From NCBI GenBank assembly GCA_951802425.1, contig OX637799.1, positions 868,001 through 932,000 of the forward strand: DNA of 64,000 nt, in the 5' to 3' direction. How positions within the stretch are numbered: the first letter of the stretch is position 1; each line of letters starts with the position of its first letter. This DNA comes from Clavaria fumosa (taxonomy: Eukaryota > Basidiomycota > Agaricomycetes > Agaricales > Clavariaceae). The position numbers were made by a program, and so were the translations under genes. Positions 46,470 through 64,000 of the stretch are shown piece by piece. A model generated the notes under the pieces. It did no database searches. It was not told the origin of the DNA and worked only from the letters and a program-made list of their open reading frames with translations.

Positions 46470-46960
46470 TAAGATTGAGTTATATAATACACCCTCAATT
46501 TGGGTGATATTAAACTGGAGGATATTAGGTTGTGCAAAACACTCTTGAAATCAAGGGATATTCAACATGATGAGATTGAGTTATATAATACACCCCCCAA
46601 TATGGGTGATATTCAACTAGAAGATATTGGGTTGTACAAAACACTCTTTACATCAAGGGATATTCAACATGATGAGATTGAGTTATATAATACACCCCCC
46701 AATTTGGGTGATATTAAGCTGGAGGATATTGAGTGATACAATACACCCCATTAAATTGAAGGATATTGAGTGATGTAATACACATCTCAATTTGAGTGAT
46801 ATTGAACTGAAAAATATTGAGTGATACAATACACCCATTTAATTTGAGTGATATTGAACTGAAGGATACTGAGTGATACAATGCACCCCTTAATTTAAGT
46901 GATATTAAACTGGAAGATATTGAGTGATACACCTCTCAATTTGAGTGACATTAAGCCACA
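46470..46960. repeat. minisatellite, gatatt/acaccc type
   Basis: Repeats of gatattgagtgatacaatac, tttgagtgatattgaactga and gagattgagttatataatac; period about 100 bp in the left part and about 60 bp in the right. No CpG. Translates in several frames, but no gene is inferred. Confidence 0.85.
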
Positions 46961-47075: not shown

Positions 47076-47559
47076 TAAAAAAATGCTTGGAGATATAGTT
47101 AAAATCACTGAAAGTATGTAGAGGCCACCTAAAATATCAAATTAAAATGTGCTTGATAGCAGTGACATTCACCTGGAGAGCAGCAGGTGAATTTGGTCAT
47201 ATATGTGCCAAAAATAACCCATTTCATTTACCTGATTATCAACCAATACAGTTTCAGGATATCATCAATAAATTAATTTTGTGCAATTTCTTGTGGTGAA
47301 AGATAGTGAAAGGCACCTAAGATCATGGCTAAGATGACCCAAAAACTAACATAAAATTCACCTATTAGATTTTCAGGCCATTGTGGTGAATGGAGGAAGC
47401 AAGAAAGAAAATGGACAAACAGCAAATGACTATGTGGATTAGACTTGAGTAATATGAGAATGATGAGAATGGGTGATATAGATGGTTAGTGTCATTGGCT
47501 GAAGCAGTAAAGCACATTCTTAGCTGACATGAACCCTAAGGTGTAAAGCTTGGCCAAAA

Positions 47560-48590
47560 CTCTTATCTTGGAAAGATCAATGAATATTGGCCAGTCTTAA
47601 TACCATGTCCAATCATAGTTTCAGTTTCTTGATTTTGCCAAGATGATTTGAACAGTTTGATCATGCTGGGTCACCTTGGCCAACATGAATCTTGGCCAAA
47701 CTAATATGACATTGAAGAAATATCTTGGCCAACATCCATTGCAGGCATACAGTCATGGGTATTGGCCAGTCTTAATATAACAGCATTTCTGGACTGTTGG
47801 CCAGGATCATATATTCATTACCTTACCTTGGCCAGGACTATATCTTCAGTTGTTCTTCTTGGCCAGGATGATATTCAAGACTTAGCCAAAGACAATTATG
47901 AGCCTACATCTATTGGTATTGGCCAGTCTAAATATTAAAGTATTGCTCTAATGTTGGCCAAGACTATGTTCTCATTGTCTGAGCTGGGCCAAGATGACAT
48001 TAATGATGCATTTTGGCTGACACTAATTGCAAGCATGCATTCATGTATGTTGGCCAGTCATAATATTACAGCATGTCTGGTATGTCAGCCAGGACTCAGT
48101 CTCTCACTTGGCCAAGATGACATTAAATTTGAATCTTGGCCGAAACCAATTATATACATGCATTCATTGGTATTGGCAAGTCTGACTATTACTGTATACT
48201 GTAGCTCTGATGTTGGCCAGGACTATATCTTCATTGTCTCATCTTGACCAGGATGATGTCTTGGCCAAAACTAATTGCAAGCATACATTTATTGGTATTG
48301 GCCAGTCTTAATATTATGGCATGTCTTTTTTTTTATGCAGCTTTTCTGTCTGGGCTTGGCCAAGAAGACATTAATGACAAATCTTGGCCAAAAGGAATTA
48401 CAAGCATCCATTTAGTGGTATTGGCCAGTCTTAATATTACAGCATGTCCTGCATGTTGGCCAGGACCACATTTGTGTTGCCTGGGCTTGGCCAAGATGAC
48501 ATTAATGACAAATCTTGGCTGAAAGAATTACAAGCATCCATTTACTGGTATTGGCCAGTCTTAATATCATGGCATATCTGGCAAGAATGA
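47560..48590. repeat. large minisatellite built on TTGGCCA motifs
   Basis: About eight units of 123-161 bp, each with ggtattggccagtcttaata, a cagcatgtctg block and one or more ttggccaa palindromes (HaeIII-type GGCC core). Units are near 47593, 47757, 47918, 48046, 48170, 48292, 48417 and 48546. Right-hand units are the most alike, so expansion seems to have been rightward. Confidence 0.88.
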
Positions 48591-51008: not shown

Positions 51009-51593
51009 TTAAGGCTGGGCATCCTGACCAGCTAGCTTGGCTTTGTTGGGGTGGGTGAGGAAGAAGTCCCAGAGCAGCAACATTACATTAGTGAGGTTCC
51101 TACAGGGCTCCCAAGTGTTTTCCTCCACCAGGTATCCCAACCATTTCACCAAGTACTTCACCCCACACCCCACCTTCTTGACATCAAGGATTTCCTCCAC
51201 ATCATACTCCAGGTGGTCATCAGCAATTGTAGGGGGTGGAGGGGGAGGCAGGTTCTGAGAAGGGAAGGAAGGGGGATGGTATGGCATCAACAACAGTTCA
51301 TTGAAGACTTGGTGGATGCACCAGGCCCAGGGGAGCTTGAGGTGGTACCCAGCAGGTCCCACCTTCTCCTTGACTGCAAAGGGGCCTGCACGCTTGTTGT
51401 CAAGCTTTTTAGAGGGTTGGTCCGTCTTTAAGTTCCTAGTGTCTGGCCAGACCAGATCTCCTTTGGAGTACTCCCGACTTGGGCACTTCCCCTTATCATA
51501 GCTCTTTTTCATTGCTGCTGCCACTTTCTCCATTGCCTCTTTGGCTGCTCTTTGGGATTCCATGAGCTTAGCCAGCCACTCATCTGCTGCCGG
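51009..51593 (-). pseudogene. integrase C terminus and chromodomain (3' end of outer pol)
   Basis: AAAMKKSYDKGKCPSREYSKGDLVW..RAGPFAVKEKVGPAGYHLKLP is the GPF/Y module of integrase. EYDVEEILDVKKVGCGVKYLVKWLGYLVEENTWEP is a chromodomain, which directs such elements to modified chromatin. The upstream half of the same reading continues at 61486 on the other side of the nested element. Confidence 0.85.
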
Positions 51594-52511
51594 TGTAGTG
51601 GGTATTACGGTTCTTGCTGCAACTGCTTGATTACAGTCAAGTCCTTCAGGGGTTCCTGTAAGGCGTTAGAGATTCACCAAACACCCTTGAGGATGTGGAG
51701 TATGAATTCAAAATGTGTGAGAAATAGAAATATACAGTGTCCGGGATATTCTGCTATGTGTCCGATAAAATCCGATAAGGATGGTGCGATAAGACGAAGG
51801 GCCGGCAACGACGGAGGCCAGCGGATCGAAGGTTGCGACGACGGGTGAGCTTAGGTGAGGTTTCTAACAGAGAGAAGGGGTTCAGAAAGCTGTATTTCAG
51901 AGAGGTCCGGAGTGTACTTAAGTACAGTTCTGTAAGTACAGCAAATTGGAATGTACGGAAATGTCCGGAAAACACATGGAACAGCGCCATGTCGCGTGAA
52001 GGGTTACATGAAGGAGTTATATCACAAGGGAAATGAGTAGCTCGGAGGAATGAAATGTCCGATAACTAGCAAATGTCCGGACCGCTCATAAACTGAAGGA
52101 AAGTGGGGCTGGTACAGCAAAGGGGTACTAAGAACAATGGACAAGGTACTGCAAAGGGTTTGAAACGTTTAAACGATTGAATGGTTGAAAGGGATCAAAA
52201 TATGAAATTTACAGCATGGTATATGAAATAAAGGAATGGGAATGGAATAGTGTGTATGTCGAGCGCTGACCGTGCTGGAGAGGTGAAATAGAGAGGCGTG
52301 GGCGGTGTGTGAGAGCGGTGGGCTGTGATCGTCACGGGGGATTGAAGACCGAAGTGTCCGATATCGGACATGTATCGGATACTATCGGTCGTTATCGGAC
52401 GGTGTCGGATCGTTATCGGTTCGTATCGCACGTAATTTCTTTGGATCGCAAAACATCCGGATAGTCGGTATCTGTCATGTTTCCGTGTTTAGATCGCATA
52501 TGGTCCTTACA
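51594..52511 (-). repeat. 3' LTR of the intact gypsy element
   Basis: 918 bp, plus strand tgtagtgggtattacgg...atggtccttaca. Contains several tatcggac/ccgata repeats (52350-52430). Its inner edge is only 157 bp from the ATG of the antisense gene, so it may supply that gene's promoter. Confidence 0.93.
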
Positions 52512-52668
52512 TTCTCCCGGGGGCTGAAAATGCAACCGCCCTCGGTTGCAACCAAACAAGGCCAAATAACGGTTTGTTGATCGTGAAGTACGCGTCGTGT
52601 GGGTGCACATAGGTCCCAACACACCCTTGTGTTTTCTCCAGCGACAGCAACACGTCAACTCTCCGACA

Positions 52669-54219
52669 ATGGAAAACTTCGATTCTTCAATCTTTCGAAA
52701 CGCAGTCCAGGCGATGACCGAGGCGCAGGCCATGGCGCCGGGCGAGGAGTTGCCGGATCGGGGGCAGGATGGAGAGTGCGCGGAGTGGGTGGGGACGTAT
52801 GCGGGTGACGCGGTGCGTGAACGAGAATCTTTCGTACTTTTTTGTATCGCACTGACAACGTTTTTAGGACGATTTTCTTGCCGGATATGTGGCAGCGATC
52901 GACGACGACGTGGAGGTGGACGAGGGACTCGTCCGGGTCGCGCGAAGGCTCAAGAAGTGGCGGAAGCTCCGCGGGGACGAGTGGTCCGCTGAGCGGACGA
53001 GAAGGCGGGAGGAGGTCGAGGCCGAGAAACAGCGCACGAGCGAGGAGAGGGCGGCTACTGAGCGGGCCGCAGCAGAGGCGGAGGCGGAGGAGAGGCGGGC
53101 GGAGGCGGCGAGGGCTGCCGAGAAGAGGGCGCGCCTTGCCCGGGCGCGCTTAATTGTCGTAAGTGACAGCGACGACGAGGGCGAGGCGGCGGCGGCGGCA
53201 ACAACGACGACGACGGGAGCGGCGGAGTCCGGTGCAGCGGCGGTAACAACGACGACGATATCACCGGACGCCGGAGAGCTGCGTGTGGACGAGGTGGCGG
53301 CAGGGGAGGATCCGGACGGTCATCGGACCGTGTGGGGAACCGACGGGGTGACGCCCGTCGGTGTTATCGAGGCGGCGGCGGTGAGTGCGGTGGCCGGGGG
53401 AGGCGAGCAGTCGGTGGAGGAGCCGATGTTCGTGCACCGGGACGGTGCGCGGATGATGGCGACTCCGGTGTGGGTGAAGATCGCGAGGCGGAAGGCAGCG
53501 GAGCGAGGGCGAGGGAGGAGAGGCGGGGCGAAGAGCGACATAGAGTCCCGGGCTGCGCGGCAGCCTGGAGATAAGGTGAGTGGTTAATTAAGATATGTGA
53601 GGCTTTTTCGACGTCTGATATAATGATTAGGAGCACGTTCCGGGGTGCAAGGAGTGCACCCGGAAGTGGCGGGCGTGCTACGGAGTGGAGGGGATAGCGT
53701 GCCGGTGGTGCCGGACGTATAAGGTATCGTGCAGTCTGTCGGCTGTGCGAGGTAAGTGGTATTCTTTTTATTTTTCATGATGAGACAAATGATAGGTGTG
53801 TTTCAGGAGCGAAAACAGAGAGAGCGGCGGTGTCCGGAACGGAAGGTATGTCGAGAAGGTATCGGGTCCGCATTTGCTAACGTATCGGAACAGGTCCGAA
53901 GGCGGCGGGAGCGAGCGGAAGTAAGAGGCCGAGGCGAGGTGCGACGCGGGTACCGGTTCGCGAGGAGACGACGCCGGAGGAGGAGGACGAGATTGAGGAG
54001 GATACCAGTGTGGAGCTGGTGGAGGAGCCGCCGGCAAAGAAGAAGAAGGCGGAGGCGGGACCAAGTCGGAAGGGTAAGGAGCGGGAGGTGGCGCGAGGGG
54101 TGTCCGGGAGGGAGGCGCTCGATAGGGCGCTGGAGATGATGGAGAGGGGGGCGGACCAGGTGAAGGCCGGAGCGGAGCTGCTCCGGATGCTCCTCCTTGG
54201 CGAGTCGTCCTCTAAGTAA
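52669..54219 (+). CDS. antisense accessory gene: Zn(II)2Cys6-like nuclear protein
   Basis: Complete five-exon gene on the strand opposite gag-pol, between pol and the 3' LTR. Exons 52669-52812, 52868-53575, 53631-53751, 53807-53845 and 53894-54219 splice to 445 aa; introns are 55, 55, 55 and 48 nt with GTGCGT, GTGAGT, GTAAGT and GTATGT donors. Residues about 70-130 are a long charged coiled-coil (RRREEVEAEKQRTSEERAAT), followed by an acidic, Ala/Thr-rich stretch (VVSDSDDEGE). Exon 3 encodes Cys-x2-Cys-x6-Cys-x7-Cys-x2-Cys-x6-Cys, the spacing of fungal binuclear zinc clusters. The C terminus has basic NLS-like SKRPRR and PAKKKK and an amphipathic Leu-rich helix. A putative DNA-binding regulator; captured host gene or element-specific accessory gene. 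Confidence 0.8.
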
Positions 54220-54361
54220 ATATTTTGTTTTTGTTTTTATATATGTTTTTCTTTTTCTATTTGGTATGGTATGTCGTGTGGGATAAGTGAGGAATGTGAG
54301 AATGTGAGAAAATGGTTGAAAGAACGTCGGGTATAAAGTTTGGACTTGTCCGAAATTTCGA

Positions 54362-54388
54362 TTTTTTTTTTTTTTTTTTTTTTTTTTT
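54362..54388 (+). repeat. poly-T tract (27 T)
   Basis: Uninterrupted run between the stop of the antisense gene (54219) and the pol stop (54447). On the pol strand it is an A27 run. Confidence 0.95.
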
Positions 54389-54446
54389 GAAGGTGTGAAT
54401 CAATGTGAAGTATAGAAAAATGAAGGATATGATGGAGAAAAAATAC

Positions 54447-57400
54447 TTAATGGCGAGGCCGAAGGTTCCGGGTTGCTCCGGAGCGTTGCGGACGAGTTTC
54501 TGCAGTGTCGTCGTCGGTGGTTTCATTATCGGATTCATCGGATAGGTCAGCCGCTTGGTTTTGCTCATCTTCTCTGTCGATAGAGTTGGGTGACGCCTCG
54601 TGTATTTGATAGGGAGAGATGTCCTCGTTTATCTCCGTCGTTTGGTCGATGATAGAAGTGACCGGAATCGATGTTTGCGACCTCGGATAGTAGGGAATGA
54701 TGCGGAAAGCTGCGTAGTGGATTTTGGAAACGGCGCCGTCGAGTTCCGAGAGAATATAGGCGCCATATTGTGTTCGGCGAACGACGATCATCGGTCCGAA
54801 GAATCGCGGTTTTGTTTTTCGATTTAATTCCATTTCAACGGCCGAATTGCGGATCAATACCAACGATCCGGGTTGGAAGTCGTAGTCGATAATAGACTTC
54901 CGGTGTGCGTCGATGAACTGCTTGACGGATTGTTTGCGGGCAGCGAGCACTTTATCGGCGATTGTTGCTAGATCTTCTTCTCGTTTTTGCAGTTGGCGGG
55001 CACGAAGGGCTATCAGTTCCGGAGTGGTCATCGGGGCGTCGGCGGTCGGAATTAAATATGTTGCTTCGGATATGTCGAAGGGGAAAAGCGGTTCGACGCC
55101 ATGTGCGATGTAAAATGGGGAGTGGCCGGTGGACCGTTGGATCGTGGTTCGTTCTGCCCAAATGACTGAGGGTAAAACGTCCGGCCATTTCGATTCGTCT
55201 CCATCTGCTGCTTTGATTAACGACTCACGGACCGATCGATGGGCACGTTCGATGACGCCGTTAGCGCGGGAGTTGTATCCGGATATACGGATGTGATGGA
55301 TTCCGTACCGTTTCTTAAGGAAATCGAGGGCTTTGATAAATGGGGCTCCGTTATCCATGATAATCTCTTCTACTGCTCCCCATCGGCATAGTATATCTTC
55401 GAATATGAAGGTTCCGAGAAGTCGGGCGGTCTCGTTTCGTAGCGGTCTTGCTTCCGGATATGCGGATAACGAGCATCGGGCGTGGACGAGAAGTCGGAAA
55501 CCGCGGGCTCTTGGTAGGAACATAGTATCAATGTGCGCTCGACGGAAAAGACCGGCCGGTGTAGCGACCGTCGGTGGAATGAAGATCTTCCGGATTTGCC
55601 GAGTTTGGCATTGGTGACAAGTTTTGACAAACCATTTTACGTCTTGATCCAGCACCGGCCACCAGAACCGATTTAGAATACGTGTCCGGATAACGTAAAC
55701 GCCTTTGTGGCCGAGTGAATCGTGTGCCTCTGTGATAATTGCGAGACGTTTGTGGTCCGGAGGTACTACTTGGTGGTATCCGTTAGGTCGGCGACGCCAT
55801 AATTTGTCATCTAGGATGAAGAACTCGGATGCGGAGCGGACCAGTCGTCGGAACTGGTTTGCGTCAATGCCGGAGGGACGGATCGGGTTTCGAAGGAAAG
55901 ATTCAATTTTGCGAATCTGTTCTTCTCTTTTGTTTGCTGCATCGGATCGGGGTATAAGGACGGCGGAAGATTCGTTCGGGGTCGGTGATTCCTCGGGTGG
56001 TACCGTCGAATTGAGTAGCGTCGATCCTGTGTAAACTTTGAAGCGAGTATGGGTGATGCCGGCGAGTCGTGTCTCGGATGTGTAGGAAGCGTCCGGTGCT
56101 CGATTCATGTGTTCCATGGCGAATACGTAGCTCCGATCGATCCATTCTTCGTGATCTTCAGACTCGGTATCTTCTTCACCATCTGCGGCACGTCGGCGTG
56201 ATAGTCCGTCGGCTCCGGTGTGCTTATCTGCGGGAATATGAACAAGATCGAAATCGAAGAGTAGTATACCGGCAATCCATCGATTCATGGCAGCGTTGGG
56301 TTGAATGTCCGGATTGTTTAGCATACCCTTAATGAACTTCGCGTCCATTTCGACAGTAAATTTCGGAAGGCCTATAAGGTAAATCCGGTACGACCGAAGT
56401 GCGCGGAAGAGTCCGTATAATTCGATTTTTGCTTGTGAGTATCGGGCCTCGCGTTCGTTCCAGGTAATGGAGCCAAAGCGGGAGGGATATCGTATTCCAT
56501 CTTCTCCAATTTGGAAGAGTGCGAAACCAACGGCGATATTTGATGAGTCGACGGCGAGGATTACGGGTTGTCCGGAGCGGTAGTCGATTGGTCGGATGGC
56601 GGATGAGTTCAGAATCGCGTGTTTGAGTCGGTCCATCGAGTTTTGTTCTTCTTTTTCGAATCTGAATGGCACGTCCTTGCGAGTTAGACTGACAAGAGGT
56701 CGGGCAAGTACGGCGTAGTTTTTAATGAATATCCGGAGTAGTCCGCAAACCCCTAAAAATGATCGGACATCGGTCAGGGTTTTGCAAGGAGGCCAGTCCC
56801 GGATACGCTGAACGTTGGAGGCATCCGGAACTCGTCCTTCGTATGTGCACGTATGTCCGGTAACGACTGCTTCGGGAACGCAAATTGTCGTTTTCTTGCC
56901 GTTAAAGGTTCCTCCGACTTTCTTGATTCGTTGGAGCACCCGGTTGACGTTATTTAAATGCTCCCAAACAAATCGTCGTATTTGCGGATTCTCAGGGATC
57001 GTCTCGTAGGTGCCGTCCGGAAGCTCGTATCGGGTTTCCGGGCCCTTGATCGCTACATCGTCTACGAATGGGATGGTTACGTGCGGAATTTCATCTTGTA
57101 GAACATGCGTGACGTCTCCATGCATAATCTGCGTCGCGTTGGTGTATCCCATGGGGACGCAGGTGAGCCGTTTTGCTCCGAGAGGGGTTTGAAACGTGGT
57201 GAGGTCTCGGCTTCGTTCGTCCAGAGACCGCTGATCGAAGGAGACGAAAAGGTCGAGTGATCCGTAACATCCGCGTCCGGCGAATGATTCCGCAAAAACC
57301 TCCATTATCGGGGGGACCGCGGAATCGCCGATAGTGATTTTGTTAAGCGGCTGGAGGTTGTGCACGAGTCGGAGAGACTTTCCGTCTTTCTTTAACACGC

Positions 57401-58184
57401 AAAACCACTGGGACCGATAAGAAGAGTTGGATTCTTCATAAACGCCGGCTGCGATCTTTTCCCGGATTACTTTGAGAACTTCGTCGTAAATACCGGGGGG
57501 AATCGGTATATTTTTGAAGATCCAAGGGATATGTTCGACTGTCGGGATAATAATCGGATCGAAGTATTTTGCGTCGAATCGTCCTTTTTCGGTCTCTTTC
57601 CAAGCGAAGGCGTCTTCCTGGGCTTTAATAAGATGGTGAACGAGTTTTTCTTCCTCCGGCCATAAGAATCCGGTGGGGTTGGCGTTGTGCGTGTCTTTCC
57701 GGTTTTGAGTGTATCGAAGACCGGGGGTGAAATCGGGGGGATGGGTCGGAAGAGTTGGCATATCGGCTAGGGGGTCCGGGTGTCGGCGTCGGACAATCCG
57801 GAATTCTTTGGGTACTGTCGCTTTGATCGGATTGACGCGATTCGCGACTTTCTTATATTTCTTTCCCAAGTAAACTGGAAGAACGGCGTCCGTAGACAGG
57901 GAATTTATTTCGGGGGTTTTGTTGTACAAGGGGGTTGCAACATTTGGACGCGACGGTTCACGTCCGATAGCGATTGGGGAATCAGCGGAATCGAGAGAAA
58001 CGTCCGAGATACTGATACAGGGGAAGGGGTCGAGAGAGACTGGGTTTATAAGGGAAAACGATAAGGGAACGTGAACGGAAGTAGGAAAAATGGCTGGAGT
58101 CTCGTATCTGGGTATAGCTTCCGTGTCCGCATTGATCGGAGGTAAGTCCGTTGGTTTGCGGACATTCGAGGCTCCAGCTCTCAA
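54447..58184 (-). CDS. pol (RT, RNase H, integrase) of the intact gypsy element
   Basis: 1,245 uninterrupted codons. RT: WFCVLKKDGKSLRLVHNLQPLNK, SLDLFVSFDQ, TPLGAKRLTCVPMGYTNA, and catalytic FVDDVAIKG. RNase H: VILAVDSSNIAVGFALFQ and MDAKFIKGML. Integrase: zinc finger HDSLGHKGVY...CHQCQ, then DDE (HIDTMFLP; IMDNGAPF; NGVIERAHRS). A Ser/Thr- and acid-rich tail follows, with no chromodomain. The N-terminal 150 residues carry no protease. It should be expressed as a gag-pol fusion by frameshift. Confidence 0.9.
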   Translation of the reverse strand: MRAGASNVRKPTDLPPINADTEAIPRYETPAIFPTSVHVPLSFSLINPVSLDPFPCISISDVSLDSADSPIAIGREPSRPNVATPLYNKTPEINSLSTDAVLPVYLGKKYKKVANRVNPIKATVPKEFRIVRRRHPDPLADMPTLPTHPPDFTPGLRYTQNRKDTHNANPTGFLWPEEEKLVHHLIKAQEDAFAWKETEKGRFDAKYFDPIIIPTVEHIPWIFKNIPIPPGIYDEVLKVIREKIAAGVYEESNSSYRSQWFCVLKKDGKSLRLVHNLQPLNKITIGDSAVPPIMEVFAESFAGRGCYGSLDLFVSFDQRSLDERSRDLTTFQTPLGAKRLTCVPMGYTNATQIMHGDVTHVLQDEIPHVTIPFVDDVAIKGPETRYELPDGTYETIPENPQIRRFVWEHLNNVNRVLQRIKKVGGTFNGKKTTICVPEAVVTGHTCTYEGRVPDASNVQRIRDWPPCKTLTDVRSFLGVCGLLRIFIKNYAVLARPLVSLTRKDVPFRFEKEEQNSMDRLKHAILNSSAIRPIDYRSGQPVILAVDSSNIAVGFALFQIGEDGIRYPSRFGSITWNEREARYSQAKIELYGLFRALRSYRIYLIGLPKFTVEMDAKFIKGMLNNPDIQPNAAMNRWIAGILLFDFDLVHIPADKHTGADGLSRRRAADGEEDTESEDHEEWIDRSYVFAMEHMNRAPDASYTSETRLAGITHTRFKVYTGSTLLNSTVPPEESPTPNESSAVLIPRSDAANKREEQIRKIESFLRNPIRPSGIDANQFRRLVRSASEFFILDDKLWRRRPNGYHQVVPPDHKRLAIITEAHDSLGHKGVYVIRTRILNRFWWPVLDQDVKWFVKTCHQCQTRQIRKIFIPPTVATPAGLFRRAHIDTMFLPRARGFRLLVHARCSLSAYPEARPLRNETARLLGTFIFEDILCRWGAVEEIIMDNGAPFIKALDFLKKRYGIHHIRISGYNSRANGVIERAHRSVRESLIKAADGDESKWPDVLPSVIWAERTTIQRSTGHSPFYIAHGVEPLFPFDISEATYLIPTADAPMTTPELIALRARQLQKREEDLATIADKVLAARKQSVKQFIDAHRKSIIDYDFQPGSLVLIRNSAVEMELNRKTKPRFFGPMIVVRRTQYGAYILSELDGAVSKIHYAAFRIIPYYPRSQTSIPVTSIIDQTTEINEDISPYQIHEASPNSIDREDEQNQAADLSDESDNETTDDDTAETRPQRSGATRNLRPRH

Positions 58185-58192
58185 AAATCCGG
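58178..58192 (-). promoter_or_regulatory. probable -1 frameshift site between gag and pol
   Basis: At the gag stop the minus strand reads GGATTTTTGAGA. In gag frame this is GAT TTT TGA; slipping back one base on the T run gives TTT TTG AGA, which is the pol frame. The last gag codon and the stop lie within the slip run, so translation of pol most simply needs a -1 shift here. Confidence 0.5.
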
Positions 58193-60178
58193 ATGCGGTT
58201 TCTTGTTCTTCAAGGATTTGCGGATCGGGATTCGCTCCTTCGTTGGCACTATGATTCTTTCTCCGGTGTTTGGATCGTTGAGAATAAGGTCCTGGGCCCC
58301 GTGGGGATGGTCAATCGTTTGGGAACCGGTTAACATGAAAAACGGTCGTCCGACAAGAACCTCGCAGGGCAACGTGTCTGCTACTTGCATTTGAACATGG
58401 AATGTGCACGGACCGATCTGTAGGGGGAAATTCTTGATGAGTCCGAGGGTCGGAGCGATGGTGCCATGAGAGGATTCCATGTGAATAACATTCTCGGAGT
58501 GTAGTGGGTTGCCGAGTTTCTCCCAAACGTCTCTTCGCATTGCCACGATTGAGCTGCCTTGGTCGAGCAGGCACTCCGCGGCGATCCGGTTGTCCAATAT
58601 CCCTTCTACGATGCGGAGCGGAGCAGCGTCGACGGCGACAACAAGATCGGAGGTGTCCGGGACCGTAATGTTTGTATAGAGCGTATCCTGTACGACGGAC
58701 GCGGTGACCGGAACGCGACGAGCGGTAACCACATCCTTCATCTTTTTGCGGATGTCTCCGGAAATGGCGAGTAGTTCGCGAGGTGTGACGCGGACTGGCA
58801 TGTCGAGTGCGCGATCGAATACTTGTTGAACGGTTACCGGATTTTCGATCGGAGCTTGGTAATGGTACTGGACGTCGGGTCGTTCGATTTTCTCCGGCTT
58901 TGATGGACGAGTGACCTGAGGCGGCGTAATAACAACGGCGGGTGGGGGCGGTAACCTAGATGGCTGAGGATCGGTATTCCTGGGTGTGGGTGCTTTCCTT
59001 TTGCCCTTGTCTACTTTCTTCGCGACATCGTTTGCAAAGGTGCGGACCATGTTTTCCAACACGGTATTCTCGTCATCTTCCTCGTCCGAATCGTCTTCCA
59101 TGTCCGGGGGGTGAGCGGATCGTCCGATCGGCTGTGCTTCAAATACCGCGGTTGTCGCCGGTTGCGTGTTCTGGGATTGGTATGTAGCGTAGTACTTGTC
59201 GAAGCGCTCGGATAGGTTGTTCCCTGAGATAGTGCCTGGCAAATATCGTCCGGAGGGGAGACAAATCCTGCCTTCTGTGTTCCGTATACATTTGCCGGAC
59301 TTAATGTATTCGAGGGCCTTCGGACAGGCACTAACAAAATGACCTATTTCCGAACAGAAATTACACGTCCGGCCTGCGGGAGAGTTCGTTGTCCGGGGAG
59401 CGGAGTGTCTTGCCGGTTCGAGAGATTGGGCTGTCAAAATCGATTCCAGGCGAGCCATTGTGGAAGCGAATGTTGCCCATGCTGCGGACATATCAAATTC
59501 TTCCTTCTTGACTACCGGTTTCGTTTCTCTCCCGGGGGCTGAAGATGCGAGACGGACGGGTCCGGAAAGTTGATCGGTTGTCGCAGAGTGGGGGGACGTC
59601 GAGGAGAGAAGAAATTCAGCTGCACCATGTACTTCATTCATGGGGTAAGGATCCTCCGGATGGTGGTTTGGTAGTATGATAGCGAGTCGGCTTTCGATCC
59701 GACGCCTTGTATGATCCCCAAATCCGAGGATGTAAAGTCGGTTCCTGTCATTTGTGGACATACGCTGTGATGTGATCAAGTGCGAGGTGATCCGGAGAAA
59801 GTCCCGATAGTATTCTCCGTGTTCTGCGCGCGTGTAAACTCCCTTTTGGGCCGAGTCCGATATGAAACGGTCCAGGTCGGCGACGGAAAATAAGCGACCT
59901 CCATCAGATCCTGGATAAAGTCGTCGGACGGCCGCTTTGAAGGTATCCCACGTCCATACCGGGTCCGGGTCAGGTGAAAGAGTCTCCCAGAGGAGACACG
60001 TATCGGTGTCGAGATAGTGCTTGGCGTACCGAATTAAATCGGGTTCTGGAACGTCCGGGTTGACGCCGGTGAGCACGATGTCGATGTCCTCGAAGTACCG
60101 GTTGAGGTGTGTCGGTACTCCGTCAAAGGCAGGGGCCCCGTGGGCGCCACGGAGCGGATATCTCGGTTGGTTGGCCAT
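58181..60178 (-). CDS. gag and aspartic protease of the intact gypsy element
   Basis: 665 aa from the ATG at 60178. N-terminal capsid-like helical region (FKAAVRRLYPGSDGG, GEYYRDFLRI, YILGFGDHTRRRIESRL). Zinc knuckle CNFCSEIGHFVSAC (CX2CX4HX4C) in the middle, then an acidic and Lys-rich linker. A retropepsin-like region has LLDQGSSIVAM (catalytic Asp in DQGS rather than the usual D[ST]G) and VLVGRPFFML. Protease is thus in the gag frame, not in pol. Ends TGA at 58183-58181, overlapping pol. Confidence 0.88.
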   Translation of the reverse strand: MANQPRYPLRGAHGAPAFDGVPTHLNRYFEDIDIVLTGVNPDVPEPDLIRYAKHYLDTDTCLLWETLSPDPDPVWTWDTFKAAVRRLYPGSDGGRLFSVADLDRFISDSAQKGVYTRAEHGEYYRDFLRITSHLITSQRMSTNDRNRLYILGFGDHTRRRIESRLAIILPNHHPEDPYPMNEVHGAAEFLLSSTSPHSATTDQLSGPVRLASSAPGRETKPVVKKEEFDMSAAWATFASTMARLESILTAQSLEPARHSAPRTTNSPAGRTCNFCSEIGHFVSACPKALEYIKSGKCIRNTEGRICLPSGRYLPGTISGNNLSERFDKYYATYQSQNTQPATTAVFEAQPIGRSAHPPDMEDDSDEEDDENTVLENMVRTFANDVAKKVDKGKRKAPTPRNTDPQPSRLPPPPAVVITPPQVTRPSKPEKIERPDVQYHYQAPIENPVTVQQVFDRALDMPVRVTPRELLAISGDIRKKMKDVVTARRVPVTASVVQDTLYTNITVPDTSDLVVAVDAAPLRIVEGILDNRIAAECLLDQGSSIVAMRRDVWEKLGNPLHSENVIHMESSHGTIAPTLGLIKNFPLQIGPCTFHVQMQVADTLPCEVLVGRPFFMLTGSQTIDHPHGAQDLILNDPNTGERIIVPTKERIPIRKSLKNKKPHPDF

Positions 60179-60544
60179 TTGTATTGGTGCGTGGGGCGGT
60201 GAGTGAACTTCGTCTGGTGAATTCTGAGGTGTTTCGGGCGGGAAATGAAGGATGTCTGGTTCAAGGGGAAGTGGTGTAAGCGGTGAGTGTGGTTGTTCGA
60301 AGGTCTGTGGTAGTGAGGGATCCGGAGTGGTGAAACTCGTGTGGGAGTAGACAATGGATGAGATACTGGGAATGTCCGATGGAAGAAGGTGGGAAGTTTC
60401 AATTACTTCTCCGGGGGGTTCGGAGGGCGGTGGTTCTGTGATCGGATTCGGGTTTCGACTTCTCAGGCGTTCGGAGCGTCGAGGCTGAGGAGCGGATGAG
60501 CCTCTGGGAATCCTTGAGGGTGGTAGTGAAGACGTCTTGTTGAA

Positions 60545-60563
60545 CCCCTCGCGGTGGGCTCCA
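60545..60563 (-). other. tRNA primer-binding site
   Basis: Four bases inside the 5' LTR the minus strand reads TGGAGCCCACCGCGAGG, complementary to a tRNA 3' end finishing ...GGGCTCCA. The primer tRNA's identity was not determined. Confidence 0.65.
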
Positions 60564-60567
60564 GAAT

Positions 60568-61485
60568 TGTAGTGGGTATTACGGTTCTTGCTGCAACTGC
60601 TTGATTACAGTCAAGTCCTTCAGGGGTTCCTGTAAGGCGTTAGAGATTCACCAAACACCCTTGAGGATGTGGAGTATGAATTCAAAATGTGTGAGAAATA
60701 GAAATATACGGTGTCCGGGATATTCTGCTATGTGTCCGATAAAATCCGATAAGGATGGTGCGATAAGACGAAGGGCCGGCAACGACGGAGGCCAGCGGAT
60801 CGAAGGTTGCGACGACGGGTGAGCTTAGGTGAGGTTTCTAACAGAGAGAAGGGGTTCAGAAAGCTGTATTTCAGAGAGGTCCGGAGTGTACTTAAGTACA
60901 GTTCTGTAAGTACAGCAAATTGGAATGTACGGAAATGTCCGGAAAACACATGGAACAGCGCCATGTCGCGTGAAGGGTTACATGAAGGAGTTATATCACA
61001 AGGGAAATGAGTAGCTCGGAGGAATGAAATGTCCGATAACTAGCAAATGTCCGGACCGCTCATAAACTGAAGGAAAGTGGGGCTGGTACAGCAAAGGGGT
61101 ACTAAGAACAATGGACAAGGTACTGCAAAGGGTTTGAAACGTTTAAACGATTGAATGGTTGAAAGGGATCAAAATATGAAATTTACAGCATGGTATATGA
61201 AATAAAGGAATGGGAATGGAATAGTGTGTATGTCGAGCGCTGACCGTGCTGGAGAGGTGAAATAGAGAGGCGTGGGCGGTGTGTGAGAGCGGTGGGCTGT
61301 GATCGTCACGGGGGATTGAAGACCGAAGTGTCCGATATCGGACATGTATCGGATACTATCGGTCGTTATCGGACGGTGTCGGATCGTTATCGGTTCGTAT
61401 CGCACGTAATTTCTTTGGATCGCAAAACATCCGGATAGTCGGTATCTGTCATGTTTCCGTGTTTAGATCGCATATGGTCCTTACA
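60568..61485 (-). repeat. 5' LTR of the intact gypsy element
   Basis: Same 918-bp sequence as 51594-52511, the visible change being one substitution. Drives gag-pol transcription leftward. Confidence 0.93.
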
Positions 61486-64000
61486 CCGGGTTCACCCCTG
61501 TGGGTGGGTGGAGTCCCCCATTCCATGGGTGCCAGCTGTAGTTGAGGAAGAAGGGTGTCTGCCCTGTTGCTGAGTGCTTGCAGTTGTTAAGGGCAAATTC
61601 TGCTGTCAACAACCACTCAGCCCAGTCATCCTGGAGGTGATCCATGTAGGCCTGGAGATAGATCTCCATCTCCTGGTTCGCCCGTTCCATCTGTCCATCA
61701 GTCTGCAGATGAAAGGCTGTACTTGGATTTGCTTTTACCTGAATCATGGAGTAGAACTCCTTCATGAAGCGGGACACAAACTGGGAGCCTCAGTCACTCA
61801 CAACCTTGTGAGGGACTCCATGGTCATGAAACACTCAATCTCGGAGGAGGCACACCACTCCAAGTCCTGTGAGGTCAAGCCCAATCACTTCAAGCAGTGT
61901 CCATTTTGTGAACTTGTCGATGATGACAAGGATGGCATTATGTCCATGGGGAGAGGGGGAGAGGACCAACTATGTCCCATGAGATCACTGACCAGGGACC
62001 ATCGGGAACTGGGTGGGGGTGGAGTGGGGCAGCATGCTTGGTATGGTCAGGCATCATCTGCTGGCATGTCTCACACCCCTGGGCATACCAATCCGCATCT
62101 TTCACCATGTCTGGCCACCAATAACCCTTCACTAGTGCTGCTCTCAACTTCCAGGGCCCAGGGTGTCCAGCAGCAGGGAGGTCATGCTCAAATTTGAGGA
62201 CAGCCTCACGAGCTCCTAGGGGGACCCAAGTGACTATCCCCTTTTGCCAGAGTCCAGCACGATCTCACGTCCACCCATCATCAGGCTCCTCCAGCTTCTG
62301 TATGTGTACCGTGCTATTTTTCTGGAGTAGTGTCTCCATTTCCAATGTGAATGACACACGAACTTCCATTTCTGGAAAAACCTGCACTGGTGCATCCTCC
62401 TCCACCATCTCTCCATAGTCTGGTCTCCAGGAGAGTGCATCCGCCTTTGTGTTTGACTTGCCAGTGTGATATTTTATCTCAAAGTCAAAGCACTGGAGCT
62501 CCCCAACCCAATGGACCTGTCTTGGTTTCAACTTCTGGGGCTTCCAGAAGTACTGGAGGTTTGCATGGTCTGTCCAGATCTCAATCATCTCATCTGCTCC
62601 AATGAGGTATGCCTGCCACTTGTGAAGTGCCTGAATCACAGCTAAGAACTCCTTGTCATACACATTGTAGTTCTTCTCAGCTGCAGTGAGGGCCTTGGAG
62701 ATGTAATCCATGACTCTCCAGGTCTCATCCATCTGCTGCTGTGAAAGGACTCCACTGGTCACCAAGTTACTCACATCTGTCTCTACCTTCCATCTCCCTT
62801 TATTTTGTGGCAGAGCCAAGACTGGGGCTGATACAAGTGCCAGGCAAAGATCTTGGAAGGCTGCTTCCTCCTCCTCCTCCCATTTCCATGGGACCTTCCC
62901 AGTCAGCTGGAATAGCAGTTTAGCATGAGCAGAGAGGTTCAGGATGTGCTGACGGAGGTAGTTTAGCATCCCATTGAACCTCCAGACCTCTTTCACATTC
63001 CTTGGTTGTGGCCAGTTATGGATTGCCACGCCTTTAGCTGGGTCATGCTCCAAACAGTTGTGGGAGATCTTCATCCCAAGGAACAGGATCTCATCCTTCT
63101 CAAACTCACACTTGCTGAGTCTGAGACACAGCCCATTCTCCCTGAACTTCCACAGGACCTGATCCATCCAGTACCAATGTGTTGCCAAATCCTCTGCAAA
63201 CACAAACACATCATCCACATAAGCCCAGACATGTCCTCCTGCAATCTCCTCCCTCAACACATGATTCATGAAGTGCTGGAAGGTGGCAGGTGCATTCTGC
63301 AGTCCAAACCACATGACAGCTGGTTTGAAGAGTCCACAGGGTGTCAGGAAGGCACAGCGGTGCTGGTGCTCAGGCCAGACCTGCATAGATGGGAAACCTC
63401 CCTTTGCATCAATCTTAGAGTAGATTGACGCTCCTTTAAGCACACCCACTGTGTCTCAGATGGGGGAGGGGGTACTTGTCCTTGATCAGGTGCGCATTCA
63501 GCCTCGAGTAGTTGATAATCAGCTGCAGCTTGTCCTTCTCATGTTTGAAGAAGAAGGGGCTGGCATACGGGGATTTTGAGGGCCAGATTTGTCCAGAAGC
63601 AAGCTGCTCATCCACCCAACAGTTCATCTCCACCATCTCCTCCCTTGTCAGTGAGTATAGCTTGGAGGAGAGGTGCTCAGGGTCCTTTTTGAACTCAATC
63701 TTAATATTGAAGTCCAGTTGGGAGTGGGGAAGTTCATCCCACTCTGCTTCACTAAAAACTGAAGGGTAGCAGCTGGGCTAGAGTTGGGAAAATGGGTGTC
63801 CGGAATACTCATGGATGCAAGGGTACTCATTTTCAGTGGTGCAGGGGGTAGCAGGGACAGAGAACATGGTGGGGGGCAGTGGGTAAGGCTCAGCTCTGCC
63901 TTCTTCCAGTTGATGTCAGGGTTGTGTCACTTGAGCCAGTCATGCCCAAGGATGACCATGTGAGACTGGGTCTTTCCCAGCAGAAAGTGGATCTGCTCCT
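61486..64000 (-). pseudogene. outer chromovirus pol (PR end, RT, RNase H, integrase), decayed
   Basis: From right to left: MVILGHDWLK (end of protease, then TGA 63927-63929), an RT start YASPFFFKHEKDKLQLIINYSRLNAHLIKDKYPLPHL, a one-base frameshift near 63440-63460, ASIYSKIDAKGGF, YVDDVFVFAEDL, RNase H (TDVSNLVTSGVLSQ), TDHANLQYF, stop at 62265, integrase zinc finger region (GYWWPDMVKDADWYAQGCETCQ), core SWDIVGPLPLS, VSD-TGA-GSQFVSRFMKEF (TGA at 61790-61792) and AFHLQTDGQMERANQ. The reading resumes at 51593. Confidence 0.85.

Follow-up and report, generated by a model that had tools for sequence, protein, structure and literature searches.

In plant LTR retrotransposons of the aORF-3R class (Grande gene23, RIRE2 and Retand TRP28), an additional gene lies antisense between pol and the 3' LTR in most copies, according to the available sections of two accounts (PMC7264820, PMC11963269). 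From the same partial texts, the GENE23 protein of Grande is nuclear and its gene has its own promoter (PMC7264820), and the TRP28 domain of Retand is predicted to bind DNA (PMC11963269). Among fungi, the Boty-like elements of Botrytis cinerea and Sclerotinia sclerotiorum are described, in the excerpts at hand, as carrying an antisense gene, brtn (PMC7264820, PMC8365987, PMC4227169). In HTLV-1, spliced antisense transcripts that start in the 3' LTR encode HBZ, which is summarised in the accessible parts of the literature as inhibiting Tax-dependent transcription (PMC1459196) and acting on LTR-driven transcription (PMC1459196, PMC6950816). What antisense accessory genes do in LTR elements is stated to be unknown in the portion of PMC7264820 available.

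The gene described here fits the aORF-3R class, as it lies between pol and the 3' LTR of a Ty3/gypsy element, runs antisense to it and is found in most copies of its family. It is contained in the window, by which we mean the whole 64,000-nucleotide stretch of Clavaria fumosa DNA analysed, located on contig C6. An agaricomycete host is also indicated by five over-cut-off matches in this genome to DUF6533, a family characteristic of mushroom-type basidiomycetes, and by the shortness of the introns. The features used below are as follows, in window positions.

51594 to 61485, minus strand (the sense strand of the element): Ty3/gypsy LTR retrotransposon, recognised by its exact LTR pair, CCGG flanks and pol Pfam domains
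51594 to 52511, minus strand: 3' LTR of 918 bp, with the same sequence as the 5' LTR
52358 to 52420, plus strand: CGG half-site array, [T/G]TCGG every 10-11 bp, within the LTR in its presumed U3 part
52512 to 52668, plus strand: leader from the 3' LTR to the antisense ATG, the presumed antisense 5' leader or promoter
52669 to 52812, plus strand: exon 1, of constant length in 26/26 young and 21/21 diverged copies
52813 to 52867, plus strand: intron 1, GT-AG, 55 bp (54-60 among young copies)
52868 to 53575, plus strand: exon 2, holding the charged Glu/Arg/Ala-rich helix region
53576 to 53630, plus strand: intron 2, GT-AG, 55 bp
53631 to 53751, plus strand: exon 3, carrying the six-cysteine motif
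53752 to 53806, plus strand: intron 3, GT-AG, 55 bp
53807 to 53845, plus strand: exon 4 of the spliced gene model
53846 to 53893, plus strand: intron 4, GT-AG, 48 bp, a length shared by the window, 26/26 young and 21/21 diverged copies
53894 to 54219, plus strand: exon 5, with basic NLS-like runs and a conserved helix-like C-terminal end, to the TAA
54220 to 54446, no strand assigned: spacer from the antisense stop to the pol stop, with a T-run on the plus strand (an A-run in element sense) of varying length
54447 to 58310, minus strand: pol open reading frame, 1287 aa stop to stop, with reverse transcriptase (RT), RNase H and integrase
58181 to 60604, minus strand: gag frame, 807 aa stop to stop, overlapping pol in another frame
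60568 to 61485, minus strand: 5' LTR, 918 bp

The host element of about 9.9 kb is a Ty3/gypsy retrotransposon, with two LTRs, a 4-bp target duplication (CCGG on either outer side) and the order RT, RNase H, integrase in pol. The corresponding Pfam matches fall at pol positions 307-487 (RVT_1; 27.9 bits, just below the cut-off of 29.6), 552-680 (RNase H) and 850-906 (Integrase_H2C2), and no chromodomain is among the Pfam matches listed for the element. Because its two LTRs are identical over 918 bp, the element moved recently, which bears out the young age proposed in the initial annotation. A TGG-starting stretch, TGGAGCCCACCGCGAGGGG, follows the 5' LTR in element sense at about 60540-60567 and resembles a tRNA primer site. 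The element itself seems nested in an older gypsy element (51009-51665 and 61481-61789), whose integrase-like and chromodomain-like frames, read by eye, flank the insertion on both sides in equal orientation. At the junction of pol and the antisense gene, the plus-strand T-run at 54362-54388, which in element sense is an A-run just past pol, was visibly different in length in both other copies read there (L109, L110). Elsewhere in the window, the region comprising 47548-48578 and 46492-46937 holds two tandem repeat arrays, one of roughly 120-175 bp units with a TTGGCCAGTCTTAATATTACAG-like core and one of 51-bp units that lie partly in an open frame.

Joining the five exons between 52669 and 54219 on the plus strand yields 1338 nt, that is 445 aa and a TAA, with four GT-AG introns removed; this model confirms the earlier proposal of a complete multi-exon gene on the opposite strand between pol and the 3' LTR. 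To see how the family carries it, we turned to the genome (48.76 Mb, 17 contigs), in which 36 pol copies of the young family were scored among 2878 candidates. All 36 are full length, 32 with no internal stop and four with one TGA, and in every one of them the antisense gene adjoins pol, whole or in part, so the suggested check on its presence in other full-length copies turned out positive. The gene match is at the expected place in 34 copies, three of which have it in pieces (one of them, C1:1411563, with an internal deletion); of the remaining two, one has the 3' part of the gene as far as fetched and the other is internally deleted. Among 40 other places listed for the young family, 27 copies were read base by base, with L041-L045, L052, L055 and L058 set aside as duplicates of the places L001-L008. 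The antisense coding sequence is intact in 25 of these 27 copies, broken in one and cut short in one, and the four introns are all kept in 27/27, in agreement with the claim that they survive retrotransposition. The likely reason is that they would read as CT..AC in the sense genomic RNA and thus escape removal. Length changes in the exons of 26 young copies amount to 0, -15 and -36, with a single -34 that marks the broken copy, whereas those of intron 1 are -1, +1, +2, +4 and +5; changes in multiples of three in exons and other changes in intron 1 are how coding and intron sequence, respectively, behave.

A protein search of the genome returned many further matches, at 58-85% identity in the part listed out of at least 175; 95 of 363 candidates were scored and 21 diverged copies of 72-80% DNA identity were fetched. 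All 21 have the four GT-AG introns at the window positions, and the exon lengths are in phase in 18, with an out-of-frame exon indel in L071, L072 and L086. Among the 21 copies, the length difference is a multiple of three in 20 for exon 2 and in 19 for exon 5; for the introns it is mostly -1, -2 or -4. We calculated dN/dS on 19 of the 22 sequences, namely those in frame including the window (L071, L072 and L086 being left out), and obtained 0.21-0.31 for the antisense frame of the window against the 18 copies and a median of 0.285 over all 171 pairs (5th to 95th percentile, 0.23-0.46). Distances of the window to the 18 copies at the three codon positions are 0.135, 0.140 and 0.318. By comparison, four other frames give 0.98-1.90, with medians of 1.75, 1.31, 1.61 and 1.46. 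Constraint on the antisense frame is strongest at the N-terminus (0.146), the C-terminus (0.177), the charged helix (0.21) and the cysteine region (0.22), and looser in the middle (0.41). Several other frames in the region are long too, as might be expected if the gene were no more than open frames and GT-AG pairs that fall together by chance in GC-rich DNA, but this explanation is refuted by comparison, given splice sites kept in 21/21 diverged copies, exon phases kept in 18/21 and constraint on the spliced frame itself.

Coding on the element-sense strand was considered separately and rejected. The mirrored reverse frame has a dN/dS of 0.30-0.39 (median 0.34) but contains stops (two in the window copy; median of six among the rest); because of these stops, and since it has its third positions in common with the antisense gene frame, we do not take it as coding.

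The retained introns, the retained cysteines (see below), the low dN/dS and the contrast between exon and intron indels mark a selected, predicted-spliced protein gene, and on these alignments the antisense gene is kept by purifying selection as such, a point that the initial annotation had proposed to test. This constraint bears on whether the antisense RNA rather than a protein is what matters, pairing with the sense RNA and feeding silencing or copy-number control. Lying over the element's 3' end, the gene would be placed suitably for such a role, and the available part of PMC7264820 considers control by antisense RNA as an alternative; we nevertheless consider it improbable, for RNA effects could coexist with a protein but fail to explain constraint at the protein level, with exon indels nearly all in multiples of three, introns free to vary and cysteines invariant.

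The suspicion that the frame might prove broken or absent in other copies applies to part of the old, diverged set but hardly to the young one described above. With a stop in the last six codons counted as natural, 9 of the 21 diverged copies have no premature stop or frameshift and 12 have one; in five of these 12 the lesion is a TGA at one shared codon just behind the cysteine motif, which is a C-to-T change since the window has CGA there. The start ATG is replaced by AAG in 4/21 (L069, L074, L077 and L078). In the aligned related copies the gene start is preceded by an A-run of variable length, which looks as though it had grown into the start codon. In all seven diverged copies tested, pol adjoins the gene in the same arrangement at 79-87% identity, and an LTR is present in both diverged copies with enough flank. 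For five of the diverged copies pol gave a dN/dS of 0.14-0.295, with at least one stop in each, and in four of the five it is somewhat more tightly constrained than the antisense gene beside it.

Metagenome searches, each scoring 7996 candidates, gave nine proteins that match the antisense gene in part, two of them at 54-55% identity, so the gene family is wider than this genome. Four matches to exon 2 run on into intron 2 and five matches to exon 5 begin at or near its start; since their ends fall at these places, they look like unspliced genomic reads, and none of the nine proteins gave evidence of splicing. Such relatives also speak to the idea that the gene is a passenger, a recently captured host zinc-cluster gene carried without function. 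The presence of introns would suit a capture of genomic DNA in the reverse orientation, and such a source could lie among the genome's 27 over-cut-off matches to the zinc-cluster family PF00172, which include repeats. We reject this reading as very improbable, because the gene, whole or in part, accompanies pol in 36/36 scored young copies and has pol next to it in 7/7 diverged copies tested, purifying selection on it is not far from that on pol, and its metagenome relatives reach down to 54-55% identity.

Exon 3 encodes the motif CKECTRKWRACYGVEGIACRWCRTYKVSC, which follows C-x2-C-x6-C-x7-C-x2-C-x6-C exactly, as the initial annotation had claimed. The general Zn2Cys6 rule is C-x2-C-x6-C-x(5-12)-C-x2-C-x(6-8)-C, and the motif satisfies it. 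The six motif cysteines are present in 19/19 in-frame sequences, whereas the window protein has a single additional cysteine, which just one further copy shares. The designation of the gene as Zn2Cys6-type is upheld by this spacing and by PF00172 matches in 6/6 short domain sequences, but not by the scores, which are all below cut-off. The best domain match has an E-value of 0.011, and the window domain sequence scores 10.2 bits (E 0.89) against a cut-off of 21. Among full proteins, 3/5 match PF00172 (best E 0.1), and the full window protein gives no match at E up to 10, so that the suggested HMM check brought matches below cut-off only. The profile zinc_ribbon_6 also matches 4/6 domain sequences (best E 0.034), and a PHD family scores slightly above PF00172 on the window copy. 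In an hhalign comparison with five of this genome's zinc clusters, the domain reaches an E-value of 0.0024 with all six cysteines aligned, at a probability of only 12%. No Fungal_trans or similar regulatory domain is in the Pfam matches listed for the window protein and the full proteins. Modelled by AlphaFold from its single sequence, exon 3 alone gives a structure of low confidence (pLDDT 62). Sequence searches of solved structures gave no relative and one weak unrelated match each, a homology search with residues 270-400 gave no match, and an IMG/VR scan with two short peptide patterns gave 38 pattern matches and no relative. We regard the protein as zinc-cluster-like, not as a proven member of PF00172.

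Outside exon 3, the protein has basic NLS-like runs and acidic stretches. The coiled coil assigned to it in the initial annotation holds poorly, as residues ~84-146 consist of 52% E/R/K/D/Q and 27% Ala with only 10% L/I/V/M/F, a composition that would be more like that of a charged single helix than of a heptad coiled coil.

Zinc-cluster frames also occur in other repeats of this genome. A second repeat has a zinc-cluster open reading frame at L025, L026 and L034 (C2:3789244, C4:3929990 and C6:2745260) and also at C9:587156; the frame is 340 aa long in L026 and L034, PF00172 is over cut-off at the first three places and not at C9:587156, and in L025 and L026 the frame adjoins, on the same strand, a DDE-transposase-like frame read by eye. 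This repeat may be a DNA transposon that possibly carries a zinc-cluster gene too. In addition, ten sub-threshold PF00172-like matches of identical score, in a 42-aa frame, lie within ~300 kb of contig ends (e.g., C1:186740, C5:135872, C7:42716, C13:1879801 and C14:51033) and resemble a subtelomeric repeat family.

The LTR next to the gene contains an array of CGG half-sites near its start in element sense, 250-310 bp ahead of the antisense ATG, which opens with an everted CCG-N4-CGG at 52358-52367. Six CGG follow one another at 10-11 bp, compared with a maximum of four in 2000 dinucleotide shuffles of the LTR, a post hoc test as the array was noticed after the gene. Across the window, runs of more than three CGG occur only in the six tiles covering an LTR, among 207 tiles of 918 bp. 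We then compared 19 LTR pieces, from the window and 18 of the 21 diverged copies (not L069, L086 and L087), each comprising the inner ~270 bp. The array is traceable in 19/19, with three to six strict TCGG each; if C-to-T and G-to-A changes are read through, each has five or six half-sites, in most cases spaced by 10-11 bp; wider gaps, of 19-29 bp, occur in L095 and L099-L101. Eleven pieces have the everted site intact, and in the other eight its half-sites are altered only by C-to-T or G-to-A changes at its CGs. Per-base conservation of the array is no higher than that of the surrounding LTR in these 19 pieces, and for this reason we do not claim conservation as evidence. The aligned stretch measures 60, 70, 79, 80 or 90 bases, that is in steps of about a helical turn; neither the phase nor these steps need selection, because slippage of tandem units gives both.

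Between the LTR and the gene, the leader is 88-90% identical to that of the window over its first 148 bp in five diverged copies and over 126 bp in one. Its first half, with a mean pairwise identity of 0.94 in 19 sequences, is the best conserved stretch in the 430 bp ahead of the gene, and its second half (0.85) is not, the LTR segments being at 0.83-0.89. This pattern would fit a promoter or another cis role.

By analogy with HTLV-1 HBZ, the array suggests that the antisense protein regulates its own LTR. We therefore hypothesise that the antisense gene is the element's own accessory gene for a nuclear zinc-cluster protein acting on CGG half-sites of the LTRs, a reading to which we assign a probability of roughly 55%. 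The gene would be transcribed away from the 3' LTR and then spliced; the protein, presumably with zinc bound by its cysteines, would probably dimerise, be taken into the nucleus by its basic runs and bind the CGG half-sites located in U3 of the LTRs. There it could tune transcription of the element, in whichever direction, and perhaps that of its own gene, as HBZ does on the HTLV-1 LTR. Several of the same features could also belong to a nuclear accessory protein with another job, such as nuclear import, packaging or the choice of integration sites, whose zinc motif binds nucleic acid non-specifically, with the CGG array serving as an enhancer for a host zinc-cluster factor. The NLS-like runs, the acidic stretches and the sub-cut-off PF00172 match are compatible with such a protein, the plant antisense protein GENE23 of Grande is itself nuclear and of unknown role in the available part of PMC7264820, and the 27 genomic PF00172 matches over cut-off could include a host reader of the array. 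As the exact Zn2Cys6 spacing is invariant in 19/19 sequences and a matching half-site array lies in the adjacent LTR, we consider this alternative rather unlikely and favour regulation of the LTR by the element's own protein. A broader version of the favoured reading can be offered only tentatively, as possible rather than expected: a built-in feedback circuit, in which an antisense, intron-bearing zinc-cluster regulator is coupled to a helically phased CGG array in its own U3, which arose independently of HBZ and extends over a whole lineage of gypsy elements of mushroom-type fungi.

In comparison with known systems, the layout is shared with the plant aORF-3R elements, for which no zinc cluster is mentioned in the available sections of PMC7264820 and PMC11963269 and the word intron appears in neither paper; the present gene has introns and a zinc-cluster-like product. 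Retand has TRP28, while no match to TRP28/PF04195 is listed for the antisense protein here. The view that this combination was not known is overstated in so far as an antisense gene had already been described in a fungal gypsy element, Boty with its brtn (PMC7264820, in the part available), and in plants. The likeness to Boty, a fungal gypsy element with an antisense gene, is one of published description; its hosts are ascomycetes, unlike the present host, and its gag-pol has a chromodomain according to the accessible text of PMC4227169, while none is listed for the element here. In the titles and abstract beginnings of the open-access literature we found no zinc-cluster antisense gene in a gypsy element and no report of a multi-intron zinc-cluster antisense gene or of a matched LTR array. 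What is new at this locus is the CGG half-site array with its CCG-N4-CGG site in the LTR beside the antisense gene. The fungal Zn2Cys6 factors Gal4 and Leu3 (PF00172) have the same six-cysteine spacing as the antisense protein, which differs from them in its sub-cut-off PF00172 match, in a motif placed near the C-terminus after a charged helix, in having no Fungal_trans domain listed and in being encoded antisense within a retrotransposon.

The gene thus offers a readable biochemical prediction, a zinc cluster, and an adjacent candidate target, the CGG array, and many near-identical copies with open pol (32/36 scored) are at hand; together these make the role of antisense accessory genes testable. 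It also illustrates that an antisense gene is able to retain several introns across rounds of reverse transcription. HBZ is alike in being antisense, spliced and on the 3' LTR side, an analogy of layout that claims no homology and that follows the available sections of the HTLV-1 papers cited above. As a bZIP protein encoded by an animal retrovirus, HBZ differs from the present gene product, which is zinc-cluster-like and belongs to a fungal gypsy element. If the proposed regulation is true, the gene would be a fungal counterpart of HBZ, arrived at via another DNA-binding fold.
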